NCBI RefSeq assembly: GCF_003046475.1
Contig: NZ_PZZZ01000003.1
Location: forward strand, 310,001 to 374,000
Direction: 5' to 3'
DNA from: Mycoplana dimorpha
GTDB lineage: Bacteria > Pseudomonadota > Alphaproteobacteria > Rhizobiales > Rhizobiaceae
DNA length: 64,000 bases
In this document: positions 3 through 10,507 of the stretch, in pieces
How positions within the stretch are numbered: position 1 is the stretch's first letter
Layout: each line of letters begins with the position of its first letter
The notes under the pieces: model-generated
Seen by the model: only the letters and a program-made list of their open reading frames with translations
The model's database searches: none
What the model was told of the DNA's origin: nothing
Made by a program: the position numbers and the translations under genes

Positions 3-1700
3 ATGATCATCGTCGCCTCGATCGCGCTGTCGATCATGGTGTCGAACCACATCGTCGTGCCGCTGGCGCTGCGGGCCGCCTCCACGGCAGACGAGGCCGG
101 CGAGCGCGACATCGCAAAGCTGCTGCTGCGCAGCCGCCGCATCTCGATTGCCGTGATGCTGCTGCTCGGCTTTCTCTATTTCTGGCTGACGCAAGGCTCC
201 GACGCGCTGGCGCCAATCGGGCTGATCTCGTTTGGCGGGGTCGCCCAGCTCCTGCCCGCCATGCTGGCGGCACTCTACTGGCGGACCGCGACGATGAAGG
301 GGGCGCTGGCGGGGATCTCGGCCGGCTTCGTCGTCTGGGCCTGGACGCTGTTCCTGCCGTCCTTCGCCACATTCAGCCCGGTGGTTGCCGAGGTGGTGGC
401 CAACGGACCCTGGGGCATCCGGGCCCTGCGCCCCGAGGCGCTGTTCGGCATGGAGGGCATGGATCCGCTGGTGCACTCGGTGTTCTGGAGCATGCTGACG
501 AATGTCACGATGCTGCTGTGTGGCTCGGCGCTGACCAGCCAGACTGCGCTGGAGCGGATCCAGGCGGCGCTGTTCGTCGACGTGTTCCGGCGCGCCCGGT
601 CGTTCAAGCCGCGCATCCTGCGCGGCTCCGCCAGCACCAGCGAGCTGTTCTTCGTGGCCGAGCGGGTTCTGGGCTGGAGCCGGGCGCGGGCGCTGTTTGA
701 TTCGGCCGGCGTGCCGCACCGGCAGACCACGCCCCAGCAGGGCGTTCCGGCCGACTTCATTGCCCGGCTGGAGCGCGAACTGGCCGGCTCGATCGGGTCG
801 GCGTCGGCGCATATCCTGCTGACCAAGGCGATTGCCGGCGATGCGATCTCGCTGGAGGAGATGATGCAGATCGCCGATGAAACCCAGCAGGCGATCGAAT
901 ATTCGCATGCGCTGGAGGTGAAGTCGCAGGAGCTGCATTCCACCGCCCAGCAGCTGAAGGAGGCGAATGCGCTGCTGAAGGAGCTGCATCAGCAGAAGGA
1001 CGAATTCCTGTCGCAGGTCAGCCACGAGGTGCGCACGCCGATGACCTCGATCCGCTCCTTTGCCGAAATCCTGATGGCGCCCGACGAACTCACGCCCGAA
1101 CAGCGGGCGCGCTTCATCACCACCATCCACAATGAGAGCGTGCGGCTGACGAAGCTGCTCGACGAAATCCTCGATCTCAGCGCGCTCGAGCAAGGCAAGC
1201 GCGACTGGGAGAACGTGCCGGTCGATGCGGAGGAGGTGCTCGAGCAGGCCATCGCCGTCTGCGAGGCGCTGGCGCGCAAGCGCAGCGTCTCGATCGAAAG
1301 CGGTGCGCGGGCCGGGAGCTGCATCGTGCCGGCCGATGCAGGCAGGCTGAGCCAGGTGTTCATCAACGTCATTGCCAACGCGATCTCGCACAACGATGCG
1401 ACCGATCCCGTGGTTCACATATCATCACGGCGCTGCGAGGCGGGCTATGTGGTCGATATTTCCGACAACGGCCCGGGCATTCCGGCCATGTACCACAAGA
1501 CGATCTTCGACAAGTTCGTCCGGGCCGAGCCGGACGGCATGCCCGATTCGCAAGGGCTGGGGCTTGGTCTGAACATCAGCCACAAGATCGTCGGCAAGCT
1601 GAACGGGCGACTGGAACTGACCAAGGGCGTGCTGCCGGGCGCCTGCTTCCGGATAACCCTGCCGACCTTGCGGGCGGCGGAGATTGTCGCGGTGCCCTAG
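3..1700 (+). CDS. CrbS-like SLC5/STAC sensor histidine kinase (5' partial)
   Basis: The frame is open to the window edge, so the gene starts upstream; 565 codons are visible. The N-terminal part (about residues 1-180) is the end of a sodium/solute symporter (SLC5) membrane domain with several hydrophobic helices. A STAC-like linker follows (about 185-300), then a coiled-coil run (about 300-335) and a histidine kinase core. The H-box SHEVRTPM puts the phospho-acceptor at visible His341; the N-box lies near residue 452; the G-boxes DNGPGIP and GLGLGLNI follow. No receiver domain is attached. This architecture is that of CrbS, the acetate-switch kinase that with CrbR controls acs. The presence of acsA 7 kb downstream fits, but no CrbR-like regulator is in view and may lie upstream. 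It ends 6 bp from the convergent ScfR-type gene. Confidence 0.85.
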   Translation: MIIVASIALSIMVSNHIVVPLALRAASTADEAGERDIAKLLLRSRRISIAVMLLLGFLYFWLTQGSDALAPIGLISFGGVAQLLPAMLAALYWRTATMKGALAGISAGFVVWAWTLFLPSFATFSPVVAEVVANGPWGIRALRPEALFGMEGMDPLVHSVFWSMLTNVTMLLCGSALTSQTALERIQAALFVDVFRRARSFKPRILRGSASTSELFFVAERVLGWSRARALFDSAGVPHRQTTPQQGVPADFIARLERELAGSIGSASAHILLTKAIAGDAISLEEMMQIADETQQAIEYSHALEVKSQELHSTAQQLKEANALLKELHQQKDEFLSQVSHEVRTPMTSIRSFAEILMAPDELTPEQRARFITTIHNESVRLTKLLDEILDLSALEQGKRDWENVPVDAEEVLEQAIAVCEALARKRSVSIESGARAGSCIVPADAGRLSQVFINVIANAISHNDATDPVVHISSRRCEAGYVVDISDNGPGIPAMYHKTIFDKFVRAEPDGMPDSQGLGLGLNISHKIVGKLNGRLELTKGVLPGACFRITLPTLRAAEIVAVP

Positions 1701-1706
1701 GCCGGC

Positions 1707-3224
1707 TCAGGCCGGGATCTCCTGCCGGTGGGCGCAGCTCAGGCGCGGGCAGGGGACGCAGGACGGCCCGACCTCGACCGGGGCGCCACCGAGATCCAGC
1801 CCGTCGCCATAGACGGTGCGATCGGCGTGGACGACGTCGCAGGCCAGCATGATCGAGAATGTCAGCGGCTTCTGGCCGAACCGGGCGGCGTGCTTGGACA
1901 CGGTCCTCGCCACCAGCAGGAATCGCCCGCCGCCCGGAAAGACGGAGACCTGCCGCACCACGCCACTGGTCGCGAACGCATCATAGATCGGCCACAACGG
2001 GCAGCCGTGGCCGAAGCCCGGTATCGTCAGGCCGGGCAGCGGAAAGCGCTTGGTGAGGCGCCCGGAGCGATCGGCGCGCAGAAAGCCGAAGGGCAGGCCT
2101 TCGCGGCCCTTGCCGCGCAGCGTCACCAGCCGGTGCGCGGCCTGCTCGAAGCTGACGCCGGCGAGCACGCTCAGCAGCTCGACGTCATAGCGGTTCTCCT
2201 CCGCCATGCCCAGGAACGCGTCATAGGGCATCATGATGGCGCCGGCGACATAGGAGGAAAGCGCGCGCAGGGCGAGCCCCCTGGCCTCCTCGGTGGACAG
2301 TTCGAGGCGGTGCATGGTTTGCCCGAGGCTTTCGGCGGAGGCGTGCGAGGCGTAGGCGCGCAGCATGCGGAATATCCGGGCCGGGCGGGGCGTGGTGTCC
2401 GGGAACACGAGCTCGGGCGTGCCCGGATCGGCGCTGCCGCCGATGCGGCACGCAATCCCGAACCGCCGCTCCAGTGCCGCCGCAAGCGGTTGTTCCGCGA
2501 TCGGGCCGGTACCGGCAATTTCCCCGCGCAGGGCTTCGGCGATCGTCTCCAGCTCGGGAAAATGGTTGTTGTGGGCGATGATCGCCTCGTCCACTTCCCT
2601 GATCGGCGAGACCGGGCGCTGGCGGGCGGAGGTCTGGTCGAAATAGGCGAGCAGGCTCTGCGTGGTCGGAACCAGCTCGCGCGCCTCGGTATTGATGGTG
2701 GTGATGAAGCGCCGGCGTTCCTCCTCGGTGATGTCCGGGATGTCGGCAAGGATTTCGGCGCCGGACTTGATGCCGGCGATGCGGTTCAGGATCTCGTGCA
2801 GCATTTCCGACAGCAGCGGATCCGACTTCAGCCGGTGCCGGAGCGTTTCGATCTCCATCGTGGCGTCGGCATAGGCGCGGTGAAGGCGGGCGAGTGCCGT
2901 CCCCGCGTCCGGAAAGCGGGCGACGAGGTCGCGAACCGCCTGGGGCTCGATCTCGATTCCGCGCATCAGCGGCTCCGCCATCAGGTCGCCGATCGCGGCG
3001 ATGGTGCGGGCCTCGCTCTCGCCGGACAGATGCTCCAGATCGATGCCCAGCCGCTCGCCGATGCGCAGCAGCAGCTTGCCGCCGATGCTGCGCTTGTTGT
3101 TCTCGATGAGGTTGAGATAGCTGGCCGAGATCCCCAGCATGCGAGCCAGGGCCACCTGCGACAGACCGGCGGCGATGCGCTTGCGCCGGATGCGGGCCCC
3201 GATCGGCGTCCTGAATTTGACCAT
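1707..3224 (-). CDS. XRE-family short-chain acyl (ScfR/RamB-type) regulator with a DHp-like insert
   Basis: This 505-residue regulator has an XRE helix-turn-helix at about 8-65 (GLSQVALARMLGIS, then SYLNLIENNKRSI). A degenerate M78/IrrE-like region without HExxH (about 205-320) and a C-terminal ScfR domain follow, ending in a cysteine-rich tail (GPSCVPCPRLSC). Family members (RamB, PccR, ScfR) sense acyl-CoA or short-chain acids and control acetate, glyoxylate or propionate genes. It is somewhat longer than my recollection of the family (about 470). The extra part, residues 138-188, aligns without gaps to the DHp helices of the convergent kinase gene, with His143 matching the phospho-acceptor. 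The start codon directly abuts a 15-bp palindrome, and there is no clear Shine-Dalgarno sequence, which suggests autoregulation. The family call is firm; the ligand is unknown. Confidence 0.85.
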   Translation of the reverse strand: MVKFRTPIGARIRRKRIAAGLSQVALARMLGISASYLNLIENNKRSIGGKLLLRIGERLGIDLEHLSGESEARTIAAIGDLMAEPLMRGIEIEPQAVRDLVARFPDAGTALARLHRAYADATMEIETLRHRLKSDPLLSEMLHEILNRIAGIKSGAEILADIPDITEEERRRFITTINTEARELVPTTQSLLAYFDQTSARQRPVSPIREVDEAIIAHNNHFPELETIAEALRGEIAGTGPIAEQPLAAALERRFGIACRIGGSADPGTPELVFPDTTPRPARIFRMLRAYASHASAESLGQTMHRLELSTEEARGLALRALSSYVAGAIMMPYDAFLGMAEENRYDVELLSVLAGVSFEQAAHRLVTLRGKGREGLPFGFLRADRSGRLTKRFPLPGLTIPGFGHGCPLWPIYDAFATSGVVRQVSVFPGGGRFLLVARTVSKHAARFGQKPLTFSIMLACDVVHADRTVYGDGLDLGGAPVEVGPSCVPCPRLSCAHRQEIPA

Positions 3225-3239
3225 TGTAAATTCTTTACA
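3225..3239. promoter_or_regulatory. Palindrome abutting the ScfR-type start codon
   Basis: TGTAAA-TTC-TTTACA is a perfect 6-bp inverted repeat with a 3-bp spacer, immediately upstream of the reverse-strand ATG. It lies in an AT-rich gap between GC-rich genes. Family members autoregulate through palindromic AT-rich sites, so an autoregulatory operator that also covers the ribosome-binding region is inferred. Confidence 0.5.
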
Positions 3240-3299: not shown

Positions 3300-3367
3300 T
3301 GAGAATATAACATTCTGTGACAGTCTCTTGCCGCGACCCGAAGACTCGGCCGCGTGGAGGAGATGAA

Positions 3368-4711
3368 ATGACCAACTTTCGGACCAACAGGCGAGGCCTG
3401 CTCAAGGGGGCCGGCGCCGGCATCGTCGCGCTCAGCACGCCTCATATATTCACCAAGGGCGCCTGGGCGCAGAATTTCTGCAACGACCCGACCAGTGGCA
3501 AGATCGTTTTCGGCTTCAACGTGCCGCAGACCGGCTCCTATGCCGAAGAGGGGCTGGAGCAGCTCAAGGCCTACGAACTGGCGGTCAAGCACATCAACGG
3601 CGAAGGGGACGGCGGCCTGCTGAACACCCTGAAGCCCGCGGCGCTGAAGGGCAACGGCGTGCTCGGCCGCAAGGTCGAATACGTGACCGGCGACACCCAG
3701 ACCAACACCGACGCCGCCCGCGACGGGGCACGGCGCATGATCGAGCGCGACAAGGCCATCATGGTCACCGGTTCGGTCACCTCCGGCGAGGCGATCGCCC
3801 AGCAGAGCCTGTGCCAGGAAATGGGCGTCATCTACATGTCCGGCCTGACGCACTCCAACGACACCACCGGCAAGGACAAGCGCCGCTACGGCTTCCGGCA
3901 CTTCTTCAACGCCTACCAGTCGGGCGTCGCCATCGCGCCGTTCCTTGCCAAGGAATACGGCACCGACCGGCGGGCCTATCACCTGACCGCCGACTACACC
4001 TGGGGCTGGACGCAGGAGGAATCGATCAAGAACGCCACCGAGGCGCTCGGCTGGGAAACGGTGGCAACCGTGCGAACCCCGCTCGGCCTCGGCGACTACT
4101 CGCAGTATCTCACCCCGGTGCTGAACTCCGGCGCCGACGTGCTGATCCTCAACCACTACGGCCACGACATGGTCAACTCGCTGCCGCAGGCGGTGCAGTT
4201 CGGCCTGCGCGAGCGGCAGGCCAACGGCAAGAACTTCGAGATCGTTGTGCCGATGTTCTCCGAATTGATGGCGGTGGGCGCGGGCGAAGCGGTGAAGGGC
4301 ATCATCGGCACCTCGAACTGGCAGTGGTCGCTGGACGACGAGGGCACCAAGGCCTTCACCAAGTCCTATGGCGAGGCCTATGGCCAGCCGCCGTCGCAGT
4401 CGGCCCACACCGGCTATGTGCAGGCCATCCTCTACGCTGACGCTGTGGAGCGGGCCGGCACTTTCTATCCGCCGGAAGTCATCAAGGCGCTCGAGGGCTT
4501 CGAGTTCGATGGCATGGGCAACGGCCGCACCGTCTACCGCGACACCGACCACCAGTGCTTCAAGGAGGTCCTGGTGGTGCGCGGCAACGAGAACCCGTCC
4601 AGCCGCTTCGACGTGCTCAACGTGATCGGCCGGACGCCGCGCGAGGACGTCACCTATGACGCCTCGATCTTCGGCGGCGAGCTCGGGCCATACGAACCCA
4701 ACAAGTGCTGA
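3368..4711 (+). CDS. Branched-chain amino acid/urea-type ABC importer substrate-binding protein
   Basis: This is a 447-residue periplasmic binding protein of the LivJ/UrtA (type I fold) family. The ATG at 3368 is chosen because GGAGGAGAT lies just before it and it yields a proper export signal. That signal has the twin-arginine pattern TNRRGLLKGAG, a hydrophobic stretch and a cleavage site near GAWA-QN, so Tat export is likely. The first mature motif, KIVFGFNVPQTGSYAEEG, is the usual ligand-pocket entry strand. It heads a five-gene importer operon (binding protein, two permeases, two ATPases) that runs into acsA. Ligand specificity cannot be read from the sequence; the regulators and acsA suggest a short-chain acid or a compound that yields acetate. 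Confidence 0.85.
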   Translation: MTNFRTNRRGLLKGAGAGIVALSTPHIFTKGAWAQNFCNDPTSGKIVFGFNVPQTGSYAEEGLEQLKAYELAVKHINGEGDGGLLNTLKPAALKGNGVLGRKVEYVTGDTQTNTDAARDGARRMIERDKAIMVTGSVTSGEAIAQQSLCQEMGVIYMSGLTHSNDTTGKDKRRYGFRHFFNAYQSGVAIAPFLAKEYGTDRRAYHLTADYTWGWTQEESIKNATEALGWETVATVRTPLGLGDYSQYLTPVLNSGADVLILNHYGHDMVNSLPQAVQFGLRERQANGKNFEIVVPMFSELMAVGAGEAVKGIIGTSNWQWSLDDEGTKAFTKSYGEAYGQPPSQSAHTGYVQAILYADAVERAGTFYPPEVIKALEGFEFDGMGNGRTVYRDTDHQCFKEVLVVRGNENPSSRFDVLNVIGRTPREDVTYDASIFGGELGPYEPNKC

Positions 4712-7002: not shown

Positions 7003-7776
7003 ATGATCGAAGCAACGCCCAACATCATCCTGCACGCGGCCGACGTTCACAAGAATTTCGGCGGCCTGCGGGCCCTCTCCGACATCGACCTGCAGATCGA
7101 GGAGGGCAAGACCCACGCCATCATCGGCCCGAACGGTGCCGGCAAGTCGACGCTGCTCAACGTCATCATCGGCCGCATTCCGCCCAGCAGCGGCGCGGTC
7201 GTCTTCGACGGCACCGTGCTGACCGGCAAGGCGCCGCACGAGATCAACCAGCTCGGCATTTCGCGGGTGTTCCAGACGCCGGAAATCTTCCCCGACCTGC
7301 CGGTGCTGCACAATGTCATGGCGCCCGCCTTTGCCCGGCGCGACGGCGCCTTCCGCGTCAACTTGCTGCGCAGCATCGATTCGGAGCGGCAGATCCGCCA
7401 GGAGGCGGAAGACATTCTCGACGATATCGGCCTGCACGGCCGCCGCGGCGATCATGCCGGTTCGCTGTCGCGCGGCGACAAGCGCCGGCTGGAACTGGCC
7501 ATGTGCCTGATCCAGCGGCCGCGGCTGCTGCTGCTCGACGAGCCGACGGCCGGCATGAGCCGGCACGACACCAACACCACCATCGAGCTTCTGCGCAAGA
7601 TCAAGTCCAGCGGCATGACCAAGGTCATCATCGAACACGACATGCACGTCGTCTTCTCGCTGGCCGACCGGATCTCCGTCCTGGCGCAGGGCCGCATCAT
7701 CGCGTCGGGCCTTCCCCAAGAGATCAAGGAAGACCCGCGCGTGCAGCAAGCCTATCTGGGCGGGAGCGTGCAATGA
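7003..7776 (+). CDS. LivG-type ABC importer ATPase
   Basis: This 257-residue ATP-binding subunit has Walker A GPNGAGKST near residue 43, the Q-loop at SRVFQTPEIF, a signature-like LSRGDKRRLELAM, and Walker B LLLLDEPTAGMS followed by the H-loop IIEHDMHVVF. The signature departs from canonical LSGGQ (LSRGD), as happens in urea/amide-type LivG relatives. Its stop overlaps the start of the second ATPase (ATGA), which indicates translational coupling. It works as half of the ATPase heterodimer. Confidence 0.88.
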   Translation: MIEATPNIILHAADVHKNFGGLRALSDIDLQIEEGKTHAIIGPNGAGKSTLLNVIIGRIPPSSGAVVFDGTVLTGKAPHEINQLGISRVFQTPEIFPDLPVLHNVMAPAFARRDGAFRVNLLRSIDSERQIRQEAEDILDDIGLHGRRGDHAGSLSRGDKRRLELAMCLIQRPRLLLLDEPTAGMSRHDTNTTIELLRKIKSSGMTKVIIEHDMHVVFSLADRISVLAQGRIIASGLPQEIKEDPRVQQAYLGGSVQ

Positions 7777-8537
7777 ACGACGTCGCGATGAAACGGGAAG
7801 CGATTTCGGCCGCCACCGAGTCTGATCCATCCAAGGCCTTTTTCGCGGTGCGCGATGTCCATGCCTATTACGGCGAGAGCTACATCGTCCAGGGCGTCAC
7901 CCTCGACGTGAGGAAGGGCGAGATCCTGGCGCTGCTCGGCCGCAACGGCGCCGGCAAGACCTCGACCTTGCGCACCATTGCGCGGATGGACAATCCGGCG
8001 CTGCGCTCCGGCCAAATCTGGCTGGAGGGGCAGCCGCTGCACGCCATGAAGTCCTGGCAGGCGGCGCAGGCCGGCGTCCAGCTGGTGCCGGAAGACCGCC
8101 GGATCATCCCCGGCATGACGGTGGAGGAGAATCTGGTGCTGGCGCAGGTGGCGCCCGGCCACGGCATGTCGCTCGACGAGCTCTACGAGCATTTCCCGCG
8201 GCTGGCCGAACGACGCAAGCAGGAGGCCGTCACGATGTCCGGCGGCGAGCAGCAGATGCTGGCGGTCGCCCGGGCGCTGGCGCGGGAGGTGAAACTGCTC
8301 TTGCTTGACGAGCCCTACGAGGGGCTGGCGCCGGTCATCGTCAAGGAGATCGAGCGCATCGTCGAACAGATCAAGGAGCGTGGCATCACCACCATCATCG
8401 TGGAGCAGAACGCCATCGCCGCGCTCAGGCTGGCCGATCGCGCCGTGATCCTCGACACGGGCGAACTCGTCTTTGCCGGCTCTGCCAAGGAGCTGCTCGA
8501 AAGCGAGGAGCTCCGCAACGAATATCTGGCGATCTGA
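7773..8537 (+). CDS. LivF-type ABC importer ATPase
   Basis: This 254-residue ATP-binding subunit starts at the ATG that overlaps the previous stop by four bases. It has Walker [11 protein letters not shown], the signature [15 protein letters not shown], Walker [14 protein letters not shown] and H-loop IIVEQN. An extended N-terminus of about 25 residues precedes the ABC core ([16 protein letters not shown]). It closes the importer operon, with acsA starting 14 bp later, so transport and acetyl-CoA formation are probably transcribed together. Confidence 0.88.
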
Positions 8538-8551
8538 GGCGAGGGAGAAGC

Positions 8552-10507
8552 ATGTCGAAGGAAACAGTTCACCGTGTTCAGGCGGCCTGGAAGAAGGACG
8601 CGCTGATCGACGACGAGACCTACCTGGCCTGGTACGCCGAGAGCGTGCGCGACCCGGACGGGTTCTGGGGGCGGCATGGACGGCGGCTGGACTGGTTCAA
8701 GCCCTATACGAAGGTGAGGAACGCCTCCTTCGAGGGCGAGGTGTCGATCAAGTGGTTCGAGGACGGCGAGCTCAACCTGTCGCACAACTGCGTCGACCGG
8801 CATCTCGAGGCGCGCGGCGACCAGGTGGCCATCATCTGGGAGGGCGACGATCCGAACGAGGGCCGGAAGATCACCTACCGCGAGCTGCACGAGCAGGTGT
8901 GCCGCTATGCGAACGTCCTGAAGTCGCATGGGGTGAACAAGGGCGACCGGGTGACGATCTACATGCCGATGATCCCGGAGGTCGCCTATGCGATGCTGGC
9001 CTGCACGCGCATCGGGGCGATCCATTCGGTGGTGTTCGGCGGCTTTTCGCCCGATTCGCTGGCCGGGCGCATCGTCGACTGCGAATCGCATGTCGTGATC
9101 ACCGCCGACGAGGGCTTGCGCGGCGGACGCAAGGTGCCGCTGAAGGCGAATGCCGACAAGGCGGCCGAAATCGCCGCGGCGGCCGGCAATCCGGTGCACA
9201 AGGTGCTGGTGGTGCGCCGGACCGGCGGGGCGATCAACTGGGTGGACGGGCGCGACGTATGGCTGGACGAGGCAGCCAGGGCGGCGTCGCCCGTCTGCCC
9301 GGCGGAGCCGATGAACGCCGAAGACCCGCTGTTCATCCTCTACACCTCCGGCTCGACCGGCAAGCCCAAGGGGGTGCTGCACACCACCGGCGGCTATCTG
9401 GTGCATGTGTCGATGACGCACCAGTACGTCTTCGACTATCGCGACGGCGATATCTACTGGTGCACGGCGGATGTCGGCTGGGTGACCGGCCACTCCTACA
9501 TCCTCTACGGGCCGCTGGCCAACGGCGCGACGACGCTGATGTTCGAGGGCGTGCCGAACTATCCCGACGCCTCGCGCTTCTGGCAGGTGGTCGACAAGCA
9601 CAAGGTCAACATCTTCTACACCGCACCTACCGCCATCCGGGCGCTGATGGGGGCGGGCGACGAATGGGTCAGGAAGGGGGCGCGACGCAGCCTGCGCCTG
9701 CTCGGCTCGGTGGGCGAGCCGATCAACCCGGAGGCCTGGGAATGGTACTTCCATGTGGTTGGCGAGGGCCGCTGCCCGGTGGTCGACACCTGGTGGCAGA
9801 CGGAGAACGGCGGCATCCTCATCGCCCCGCTGCCGGGGTCAACCGACCTCAAGCCGGGCTCGGCCACCCGGCCCTTCTTCGGCGTGGTGCCGGAGATCGT
9901 CGACAATGACGGCGCCGTCATCGAGGGGGTGGGCGCGGGCAACCTGTGCATCGCACAGCCCTGGCCGGGCATGATGCGCACCGTGTTCGGTGACCACGAC
10001 CGCTTCGTCGAGACCTACTTCTCCACCTACAAGGGCAAGTATTTTACCGGCGACGGCTGCCGGCGCGACGAGGACGGCTACTACTGGATCACCGGGCGGG
10101 TCGACGACGTCATCAACGTGTCGGGTCACCGCATGGGCACGGCGGAGGTGGAATCGGCGCTGGTGGCGCACGAAAAGGTGTCGGAGGCGGCGGTGGTCGG
10201 CTATCCGCACGACGTCAAGGGCCAGGGCATCTACTGCTATGTCACGCTGATGGAGGGCGAGGAGCCGAGCGACGCGTTGCGCAAGGATCTGATCGCCCAT
10301 GTTCGCCAGGAGATCGGGCCGATCGCGGCGCCCGACAAGATCCAGTTCGCGCCTGCACTGCCGAAGACGCGCTCGGCCAAGATCATGCGCCGCATCCTGC
10401 GCAAGATCGCCGAGGACGACTTCTCGGCGCTCGGCGACACCTCGACGCTCGCCGACCCCTCCGTCGTCGATGACCTCATCGCCAACCGGCAAAACAGGAA
10501 AGCCTGA
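8552..10507 (+). CDS. acsA: Acetyl-CoA synthetase
   Basis: This 651-residue AMP-forming acetate:CoA ligase makes acetyl-AMP and then acetyl-CoA. It has the full family length, with the N-terminal ACAS domain, the P-loop [11 protein letters not shown] near residue 264, the acetate-pocket and aromatic segment TWWQTENGG, the hinge region [18 protein letters not shown], and the C-terminal [10 protein letters not shown] containing the lysine (about residue 609) that acetyltransferases modify to switch the enzyme off. A strong GAGGGAGAAG ribosome site precedes the ATG. The gene follows an importer operon and shares the neighbourhood with a CrbS-like kinase and a ScfR-type regulator, both linked to acetate metabolism in other bacteria. 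Confidence 0.97.

Follow-up and report, generated by a model that had tools for sequence, protein, structure and literature searches.

Genes of the regulator locus

The window, a stretch of 64,000 nucleotides of Mycoplana dimorpha DNA, carries the gene of an ScfR-type regulator that converges with the gene of an SSF-type histidine kinase and diverges from the genes of an ABC transporter (Table 1). The HTH_3, Peptidase_M78/IrrE and ScfRs parts of the regulator score 47, 36.4 and 121.9 bits, against curated Pfam cut-offs of 23, 22 and 24, while the NCBIfam RamB equivalog NF038139 gives 286.1 bits, below its curated cut-off of 700. The full regulator model finds its closest fold in the solved PrpR of Mycobacterium tuberculosis (E 2e-20), and PrpR is the top sequence match as well. 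Cysteines C408, C489, C492 and C497 are invariant in 39/39 regulator sequences; ScfR proteins contain an Fe-S cluster, according to the accessible part of PMC10370305, and the Cys positions of a candidate Fe-S site appear to be retained. Apart from an insert between the linker helix and the IrrE-like domain, the regulator is of the ordinary ScfR type. No HATPase_c (ATPase/CA) domain was found in it by Pfam search.

The first-pass annotation had named a convergent kinase with its H-box at 1023; as a correction, the gene starts 1036 bases before the window, so that only its 3' part lies within it, with the H-box His codon at about 1022-1024. The SSF match of the full protein, 21.9 bits, is just under the Pfam cut-off of 22.8; 'CrbS-like' is the name that the first-pass annotation gave to the kinase. 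On the other side of the regulator, the Pfam frame of the substrate-binding protein was taken from an upstream start at 3317. The genes that follow are presumed, from sequence features, to encode two ABC permeases, two ABC ATPases and an acetyl-CoA synthetase-like protein. The small membrane-type protein encoded between REC and the kinase matches no Pfam family above cut-off; such a protein occupies this place in most cassettes and recalls CbrX, which lies upstream of CbrA and is named in PMC6591292.

Table 1. Features of the regulator locus (positions in the window, or in locus L031 where so prefixed)
Feature	Position	Strand	Evidence or remark
SSF-type histidine kinase, 3' part (full gene 911 aa)	3..1700	+	L031:8965-11697; HisKA and HATPase_c above cut-off
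DHp-containing ScfR-type regulator, 505 aa	1707..3224	-	Pfam HTH_3, Peptidase_M78/IrrE and ScfRs above cut-off
ScfRs C-terminal part, residues 368-502	1719..2123	-	Pfam; four invariant Cys
IrrE-like (Peptidase_M78) part, residues 311-366	2127..2294	-	Pfam
DHp insert, residues 135-200	2625..2822	-	alignment gap in plain ScfR, RamB model, AlphaFold2 helices
His143, phospho-acceptor position	2796..2798	-	His in 102/105 loci
HTH_3 DNA-binding domain, residues 12-65	3030..3191	-	Pfam
Palindrome TGTAAA-TTC-TTTACA, candidate operator	3225..3239		abuts the regulator start codon, directly upstream
Peripla_BP_6 substrate-binding protein of ABC transporter	3368..4711	+	Pfam; divergent from regulator
ABC permease (presumed), 342 aa	4816..5844	+	conserved neighbour
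ABC permease (presumed), 380 aa	5851..6993	+	conserved neighbour
ABC ATPase (presumed)	7003..7776	+	conserved neighbour
Second ABC ATPase (presumed)	7773..8537	+	conserved neighbour
Acetyl-CoA synthetase-like gene (presumed)	8552..10507	+	near regulator in part of the loci
Single-domain receiver (REC)	L031:8266-8679		upstream, ~1.3 kb before the window; Pfam Response_reg, 89.3 bits
Small membrane-type protein	L031:8600-8965		upstream of the window, between REC and SSF-kinase

Nature and origin of the insert

Residues 198-500 of the regulator pair with positions 131-444 of the RamB model, and since model position 131 falls on residue 198, the regulator has about 65 extra residues. In an alignment of 20 proteins, one of them the window's copy, 13 have the insert, and the seven plain ScfR proteins have a clean gap at its place. 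The gap and the RamB alignment together rule out a normal ScfR linker. The AlphaFold2 model of the whole protein (39 sequences) predicts two long helices, 136-161 and 167-199, and that of the insert segment (pLDDT 83.6) places them at segment positions 24-49 and 55-89, a predicted two-helix hairpin as in a DHp domain.

Residues 138-188 (2661-2813 on the minus strand) had been proposed to resemble the DHp helices of the adjoining kinase, and these coordinates are correct. The gap-free alignment gives the claimed 21 identities in 47 positions over residues 138-184, and 21/51 over 138-188; BLASTP of the regulator against the kinase gives 3e-9. Pfam HisKA (PF00512) matches residues 137-193 with E 0.0056 and 17.1 bits in the whole protein, and the 67-residue segment alone with E 1.7e-4 and 22.0 bits (another segment 20.3 bits); the curated cut-off of 26.9 bits is reached neither by the whole regulator nor by its segments. 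HisKA leads the Pfam matches of the insert segments by a wide margin, being found for 32/39 members at E<=1 against 4/39 for the next family, and the profile of the insert family matches that of the cassette kinases with probability 98.9 and E 2.1e-17 over 56 columns.

The genome holds 27 HisKA matches, the regulator being the weakest. Among the other 26, the SSF-kinase ranks first with an insert profile made without the window's copy (1.4e-15, the next 1e-5) and also with a second profile from 12 relatives of the first alignment (4.4e-15 and 2.8e-6). The next-best match of the insert profile in each genome is usually a kinase of about 900 residues, as read from the rows without a tally. A DHp tree of 174 tips, built on a short domain against a background of 16 other kinases from one genome and five degenerate ones, unites all 86 regulator inserts in one clade (support 0.994), which joins 67 SSF-kinases (54 + 13; support 0.903) apart from the other and the degenerate kinases. 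With the 69 inserts that were not found by the DNA pattern described below, the supports are 0.972 for the clade and 0.834 for its joining the SSF-kinases. By these comparisons the insert is a HisKA-type DHp helix pair, and the tree fits a single capture from an SSF-type kinase or its ancestor.

Chance resemblance, which the first-pass annotation had named as the alternative, is ruled out by the BLASTP, profile-profile and Pfam comparisons, the genome ranking and the tree. The 19-nt run shared by the two genes (kinase 1109-1127, regulator 2694-2712) was confirmed as their longest common run. The run deserves little attention: with the residues RFITTI aligned, codon identity has a probability of about 0.06 under the codon usage found in seven genes of the window, so the run is no evidence of recent gene conversion, which is superfluous as an explanation. 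Foldseek of the hairpin model alone returned no match below E 0.001, with kinase structures among the top matches. Protein A repeats, the top PDB sequence matches of the insert profile, were set aside as a chance likeness of loop and helix; entries of the kinase HK853 come next (E 0.03).

Distribution and gene neighbourhood

At E<=0.001 the insert profile finds matches, kinases included, in 119/385 genomes of the class Alphaproteobacteria, and by row count 45/385 have a regulator-type match (open frame 418-599 aa, E<=1e-14). In total 106 distinct loci carry the insert. The first-pass annotation had suggested a survey of ScfR homologues for the insert and for its co-occurrence with the kinase, and the linkage to a kinase of this kind does recur in other genera. 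The 46 insert-found loci belong mostly to Hyphomicrobiales and other Alphaproteobacteria, the exceptions being Variovorax (L074), Oceanobacillus sp. (L071) and Mesoflavibacter sp. (L073). The copies in L071 and L073 look alphaproteobacterial under non-proteobacterial names, that of L071 with neither REC nor kinase nearby, and may reflect transfer, contamination or wrong labels. The insert is thus not an oddity of the window; it occurs in many alphaproteobacterial genera.

A search with the window proteins gave 15 loci, the window's included, all of which encode the regulator, REC and SSF-kinase. The ABC transporter is present in 14 of them, the exception being L044, whose contig starts within the regulator gene. 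Of the 46 insert-found loci, six of which repeat loci of this set, 45 have the transporter binding protein, 42 REC and 40 the kinase. Among the misses, the contig ends at L064, L066 and L082; L070 and L078 have REC beside the regulator without the kinase; L071 lacks both; L085 has the kinase without REC; and at L091 the kinase is 5.6 kb off, and neither REC nor transporter was seen. After removal of duplicates, REC is present in 81 of 87 loci, lying within 500 bases of the regulator in 67, within 5 kb in 13 and further away in one. It is absent from the stretch in L066, L071, L085, L091, L144 and L148, the last two having kinase and REC on another contig. Nearly all RECs (80/81) end no more than 40 residues beyond the receiver domain, and Lys110 and Asp58, the acceptor, are invariant in 81/81; the REC open frames were used with untrimmed starts, a few of them extending back across the regulator gene.

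Twenty further loci of another family, one of them shared with the set of 87, have REC and kinase in 17 cases; L201, L202 and L205 show no REC in the stretch and a kinase-type match elsewhere in the genome. REC, kinase or transporter occurred in 0/11 plain-ScfR loci used as a control. The REC lies beside the regulator at L146 and 3 kb away at L154, with the kinase on another contig in both genomes; these genomes (L145/L146 and L154/L155) encode REC twice, at the kinase and again, on the other contig, near the regulator. Gene order makes REC the candidate cognate receiver of the regulator (81/87 and 17/20 loci). A REC of the same kind also accompanies SSF-kinases that lack a DHp-ScfR regulator (9/9 loci, L122-L130; in L130 it is the end of a 573-aa open frame), so REC is not dedicated to the regulator.

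At least five of these nine loci (L124, L125, L127, L128 and L129), and L149, encode a membrane-type protein of about 700 residues with a PAS domain, a degenerate kinase-like region in which the DHp His is lost, as judged by eye, and a DEDDh-type exonuclease domain; Pfam was run on those of L129 (L129:4664-6763) and L149 (L149:3708-5816) only. A pseudokinase-exonuclease adjoining a REC of the same kind is itself odd.

Candidate operator

The palindrome next to the regulator start codon is the only match in the window at up to two mismatches, with 0.10 expected. The motif TGTAAA-N3-TTTACA, taken from the window's own site, occurs with at most one mismatch upstream of the regulator in 36/85 loci, this site included, against 4/425 mononucleotide-shuffled sequences. 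In the loci of the other family it is exact in 1/20 and absent at up to two mismatches in 9/20. The palindrome suggests autoregulation and control of the divergent transporter. Upstream of the regulators of L198, L202 and L205 two TGTAAA-type boxes lie 32 bases apart, resembling the paired boxes, separated by 18 bp, that PMC10370305 reports for ScfR binding.

Residues of the insert

The phospho-acceptor position was tabulated for 105 loci (L044 contains only the end of the insert, at a contig edge) and is His in 102, Tyr in two and Phe in one; His143 ranks 34th of the 505 regulator positions by conservation. The most frequent residues at H+1 are Arg (31) and Gln (25), followed by Glu (24), with Asp in three; H+3 is Leu in 92 and Arg in five, H+4 is Thr in 53, Ser in 42, Asn in nine and Asp in one. 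The H-E pair that the first-pass annotation had listed is present in the window's copy (His143-Glu144, with Asn147), which is less degenerate than most inserts, but it is not a trait of the family; nor is the combination of an acid at H+1 with Pro at H+5 by which histidine kinases are recognised.

The DNA pattern with which the 46 insert-found loci were obtained prescribes H+7 to H+16, including AEIL and the Ser of H+11. Part of the conservation at these positions is therefore built in, and a recount was made on the 69 of 105 loci also brought in by another search; His and H+1 to H+5 lie outside the pattern. In these 69, the acceptor is His in 67 and H+4 is Thr, Ser or Asn in 68. H+7 is Thr (42), Ala (24) or Ser (3), H+8 Ala (43), Ser (21), Thr (4) or Gly (1), H+10 Arg in 59 and H+11 Ser in 66. 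The recount left the conservation of His, H+4 and H+11, and the tree, unchanged.

A text pattern with H-E/D and Pro at H+5 served to locate the H-boxes of the cassette kinases, and a looser one, also with Pro at H+5, was used for the other kinases, so the acid and Pro of the kinases are not independent counts; nine of the 25 other kinases of this genome matched no pattern and were left out of the tree and residue tables, and the L051 kinase piece matched none. H+11 is Ser in 44 and Ala in 10 of the 54 cassette kinases, and Ser in 1/16 other kinases of this genome. H+3 is Arg in 54/54 cassette kinases, and H+12, mostly Ala or Thr in the regulators (74/105), is Phe in 52/54. In specificity work H+7, H+8, H+11 and H+12 face the receiver. 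The DivL mutants described in the accessible part of PMC4211667 support H+3, H+7 and H+12, R553A (H+3) mattering for DivK binding. From these tallies, the insert has mostly lost what a kinase's own substrate needs and has kept the acceptor and part of a receiver-facing surface, while H+3 and H+12 have changed.

Co-variation of each regulator with its cognate kinase was sought and set aside as weak: identity in helix 1 is 0.474 with the own kinase and 0.462 with those of others (permutation p 0.04), a difference not corrected for shared ancestry. Of the three regulators that lack the His, two belong to the group with no REC inside 5 kb (Fisher p 0.015, L144 being left out since its row carries a different name), but such small numbers carry little weight.

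Proposed route of the signal

It is somewhat more probable than an even chance, on gene order and residues, that the kinase phosphorylates REC and that REC~P docks on the regulator's DHp or passes phosphate to it. A DHp hairpin of the same stock as that of the SSF-kinase would have been placed once into the ancestor of an ScfR subfamily, where it would serve as an input domain. The SSF-type kinase would autophosphorylate and then phosphorylate the adjoining REC, which lacks an output domain, and REC~P would dock on the DHp of the regulator. There it would most likely transfer the phosphoryl group to His143, in the manner of Spo0F and Spo0B, or alternatively be read by binding alone, as DivL reads DivK. 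Docking would alter the DHp dimer and, through it, the HTH dimer bound at the operator that separates regulator and transporter genes. With a short-chain acyl-CoA sensed by the ScfR part, one protein would combine an outside signal with an inside metabolite, and would thereby control how acetate or a related acid is taken up and activated. More tentatively, and with distinctly less confidence than docking or transfer taken together, the regulator may be the terminal phospho-His acceptor of a His-Asp-His relay (kinase to REC to DHp), which would fuse one- and two-component signalling in a single DNA-binding protein; the three regulators with Tyr or Phe for His imply that phosphotransfer is not universal.

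Docking is favoured by the conservation of H+4, H+7 and H+11 in the insert and by the presence of REC beside the regulator in most loci and in none of the plain-ScfR controls, and DivL and DivK offer a precedent for a receiver that docks on a DHp lacking kinase activity (PMC4211667, in its accessible part). Against it, H+3, the DivL-DivK position, has Leu for Arg in most regulators, H+12 differs from the cassette kinases, and the link to REC is broken at L085, L071, L144, L148, L201, L202 and L205. The occurrence of REC with SSF-kinases that lack this regulator, the nearly equal helix 1 identities and the Foldseek result for the hairpin count on the same side.

The flow might instead run in reverse, the regulator being an acyl-CoA-controlled phosphatase of REC that damps the kinase signal when acyl-CoA is plentiful. 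In HisKA proteins, as the accessible part of PMC3510030 reports, the acid at H+1 is needed for kinase activity only and the H+4 residue for phosphatase activity only; T/S/N at H+4 in 104/105 inserts, with the kinase-only acid mostly lost, would suit this reading, but H+4 is Ser rather than Thr or Asn in 42/105 and no other output of REC is recognised at these loci, which makes it improbable.

The same work bears on direct phosphorylation of His143 by the ATPase domain of the SSF-kinase, with or without mixed DHp dimers and with no receiver involved. The kinase lies beside the regulator in most loci and at L085 does so without REC, and the H-E pair is present in the window's copy and in 17/20 of the other family's, so that direct transfer keeps a small place. 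However, the H+1 acid needed for HisKA autophosphorylation (PMC3510030) is present in just 27/105, Pro at H+5 in 0/105, the conserved REC would be left without a role, and L070 and L078 keep REC and not the kinase beside the regulator. We regard this reading as unlikely; the pair of DHp helices with its histidine and without an ATPase domain, homologous to the adjoining kinase, stands as the first-pass annotation described it, while the direct phosphotransfer, mixed dimers or decoy proposed there are less likely than a route through the conserved REC, which lies outside the window.

DHp domains dimerise, and their His is exposed in known structures. The hairpin could be just a dimerisation spacer with a relic His; I158, F173 and L184 are among the insert positions that are invariant in the residue table, and three copies lack the His; but an exposed His of such high rank would hardly stay conserved for packing alone, and the tie to REC would be left unexplained, so that we give this reading little weight as well. 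That the insert is merely a decoy competing with the kinase DHp for REC or the ATPase domain is very improbable: H+7, H+8 and H+11 are closer to the cassette kinases than to other kinases (in a set that includes pattern-found loci), but a DNA-binding, ligand-sensing carrier would be a costly decoy and the gene order is retained over many genera.

Relation to known systems and significance

The regulator shares with the ScfR family (RamB, MccR/PrpR, PccR), whose members respond to metabolites of fatty acids, the HTH, helical linker, IrrE-like and ScfRs parts and the conserved Cys, and differs by the DHp hairpin and by the adjoining receiver and kinase. The Spo0F-Spo0B-Spo0A phosphorelay likewise employs a single-domain receiver and a DHp protein without a working kinase domain; there, however, Spo0B hands the phosphate to another receiver, whereas here the DHp is on the DNA-binding protein itself. 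Transcription factors with PRDs are controlled by phospho-His via the PTS, with another domain and another phosphate donor. CrbS/CrbR and RpuS/RpuR (SLC5/STAC kinases), studied for acetate and pyruvate use according to the accessible part of PMC9100948, also have an SSF-domain histidine kinase near acetate genes, but their partner is a LuxR-type DNA-binding regulator, whereas here it would be a single-domain REC with the DHp-ScfR protein as DNA binder. In DivL/DivK of Caulobacter (PMC4211667) the DHp that reads the receiver has lost kinase activity; the pseudokinase DivL has Tyr in place of the His, while the inserts mostly keep the His and their carrier is a transcription factor.

No description of a DHp in an XRE/ScfR regulator appears among the literature matches listed, which comprised titles and abstract starts and few subscription journals. 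An ScfR gene adjacent to a two-component system is mentioned in PMC10370305; this was the only paper found for the locus tag Pden_1785, and in its accessible part no mention of a DHp or a receiver was seen. For one species, the link in gene order may thus already have come into view.

The regulator, the kinase and the output-less REC together suggest an unusual wiring of signal to gene. Single-domain receivers without an output domain are common, and it is often unclear by what route they act on promoters; in this case the order of the genes and their sequences suggest a testable one, in which a DNA-binding protein carries the docking half of a kinase. The arrangement recurs at loci that resemble those for uptake and activation of short-chain acids. 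If the proposal is true, a one-component regulator would have been brought under two-component control by the capture of a domain of about 65 residues.
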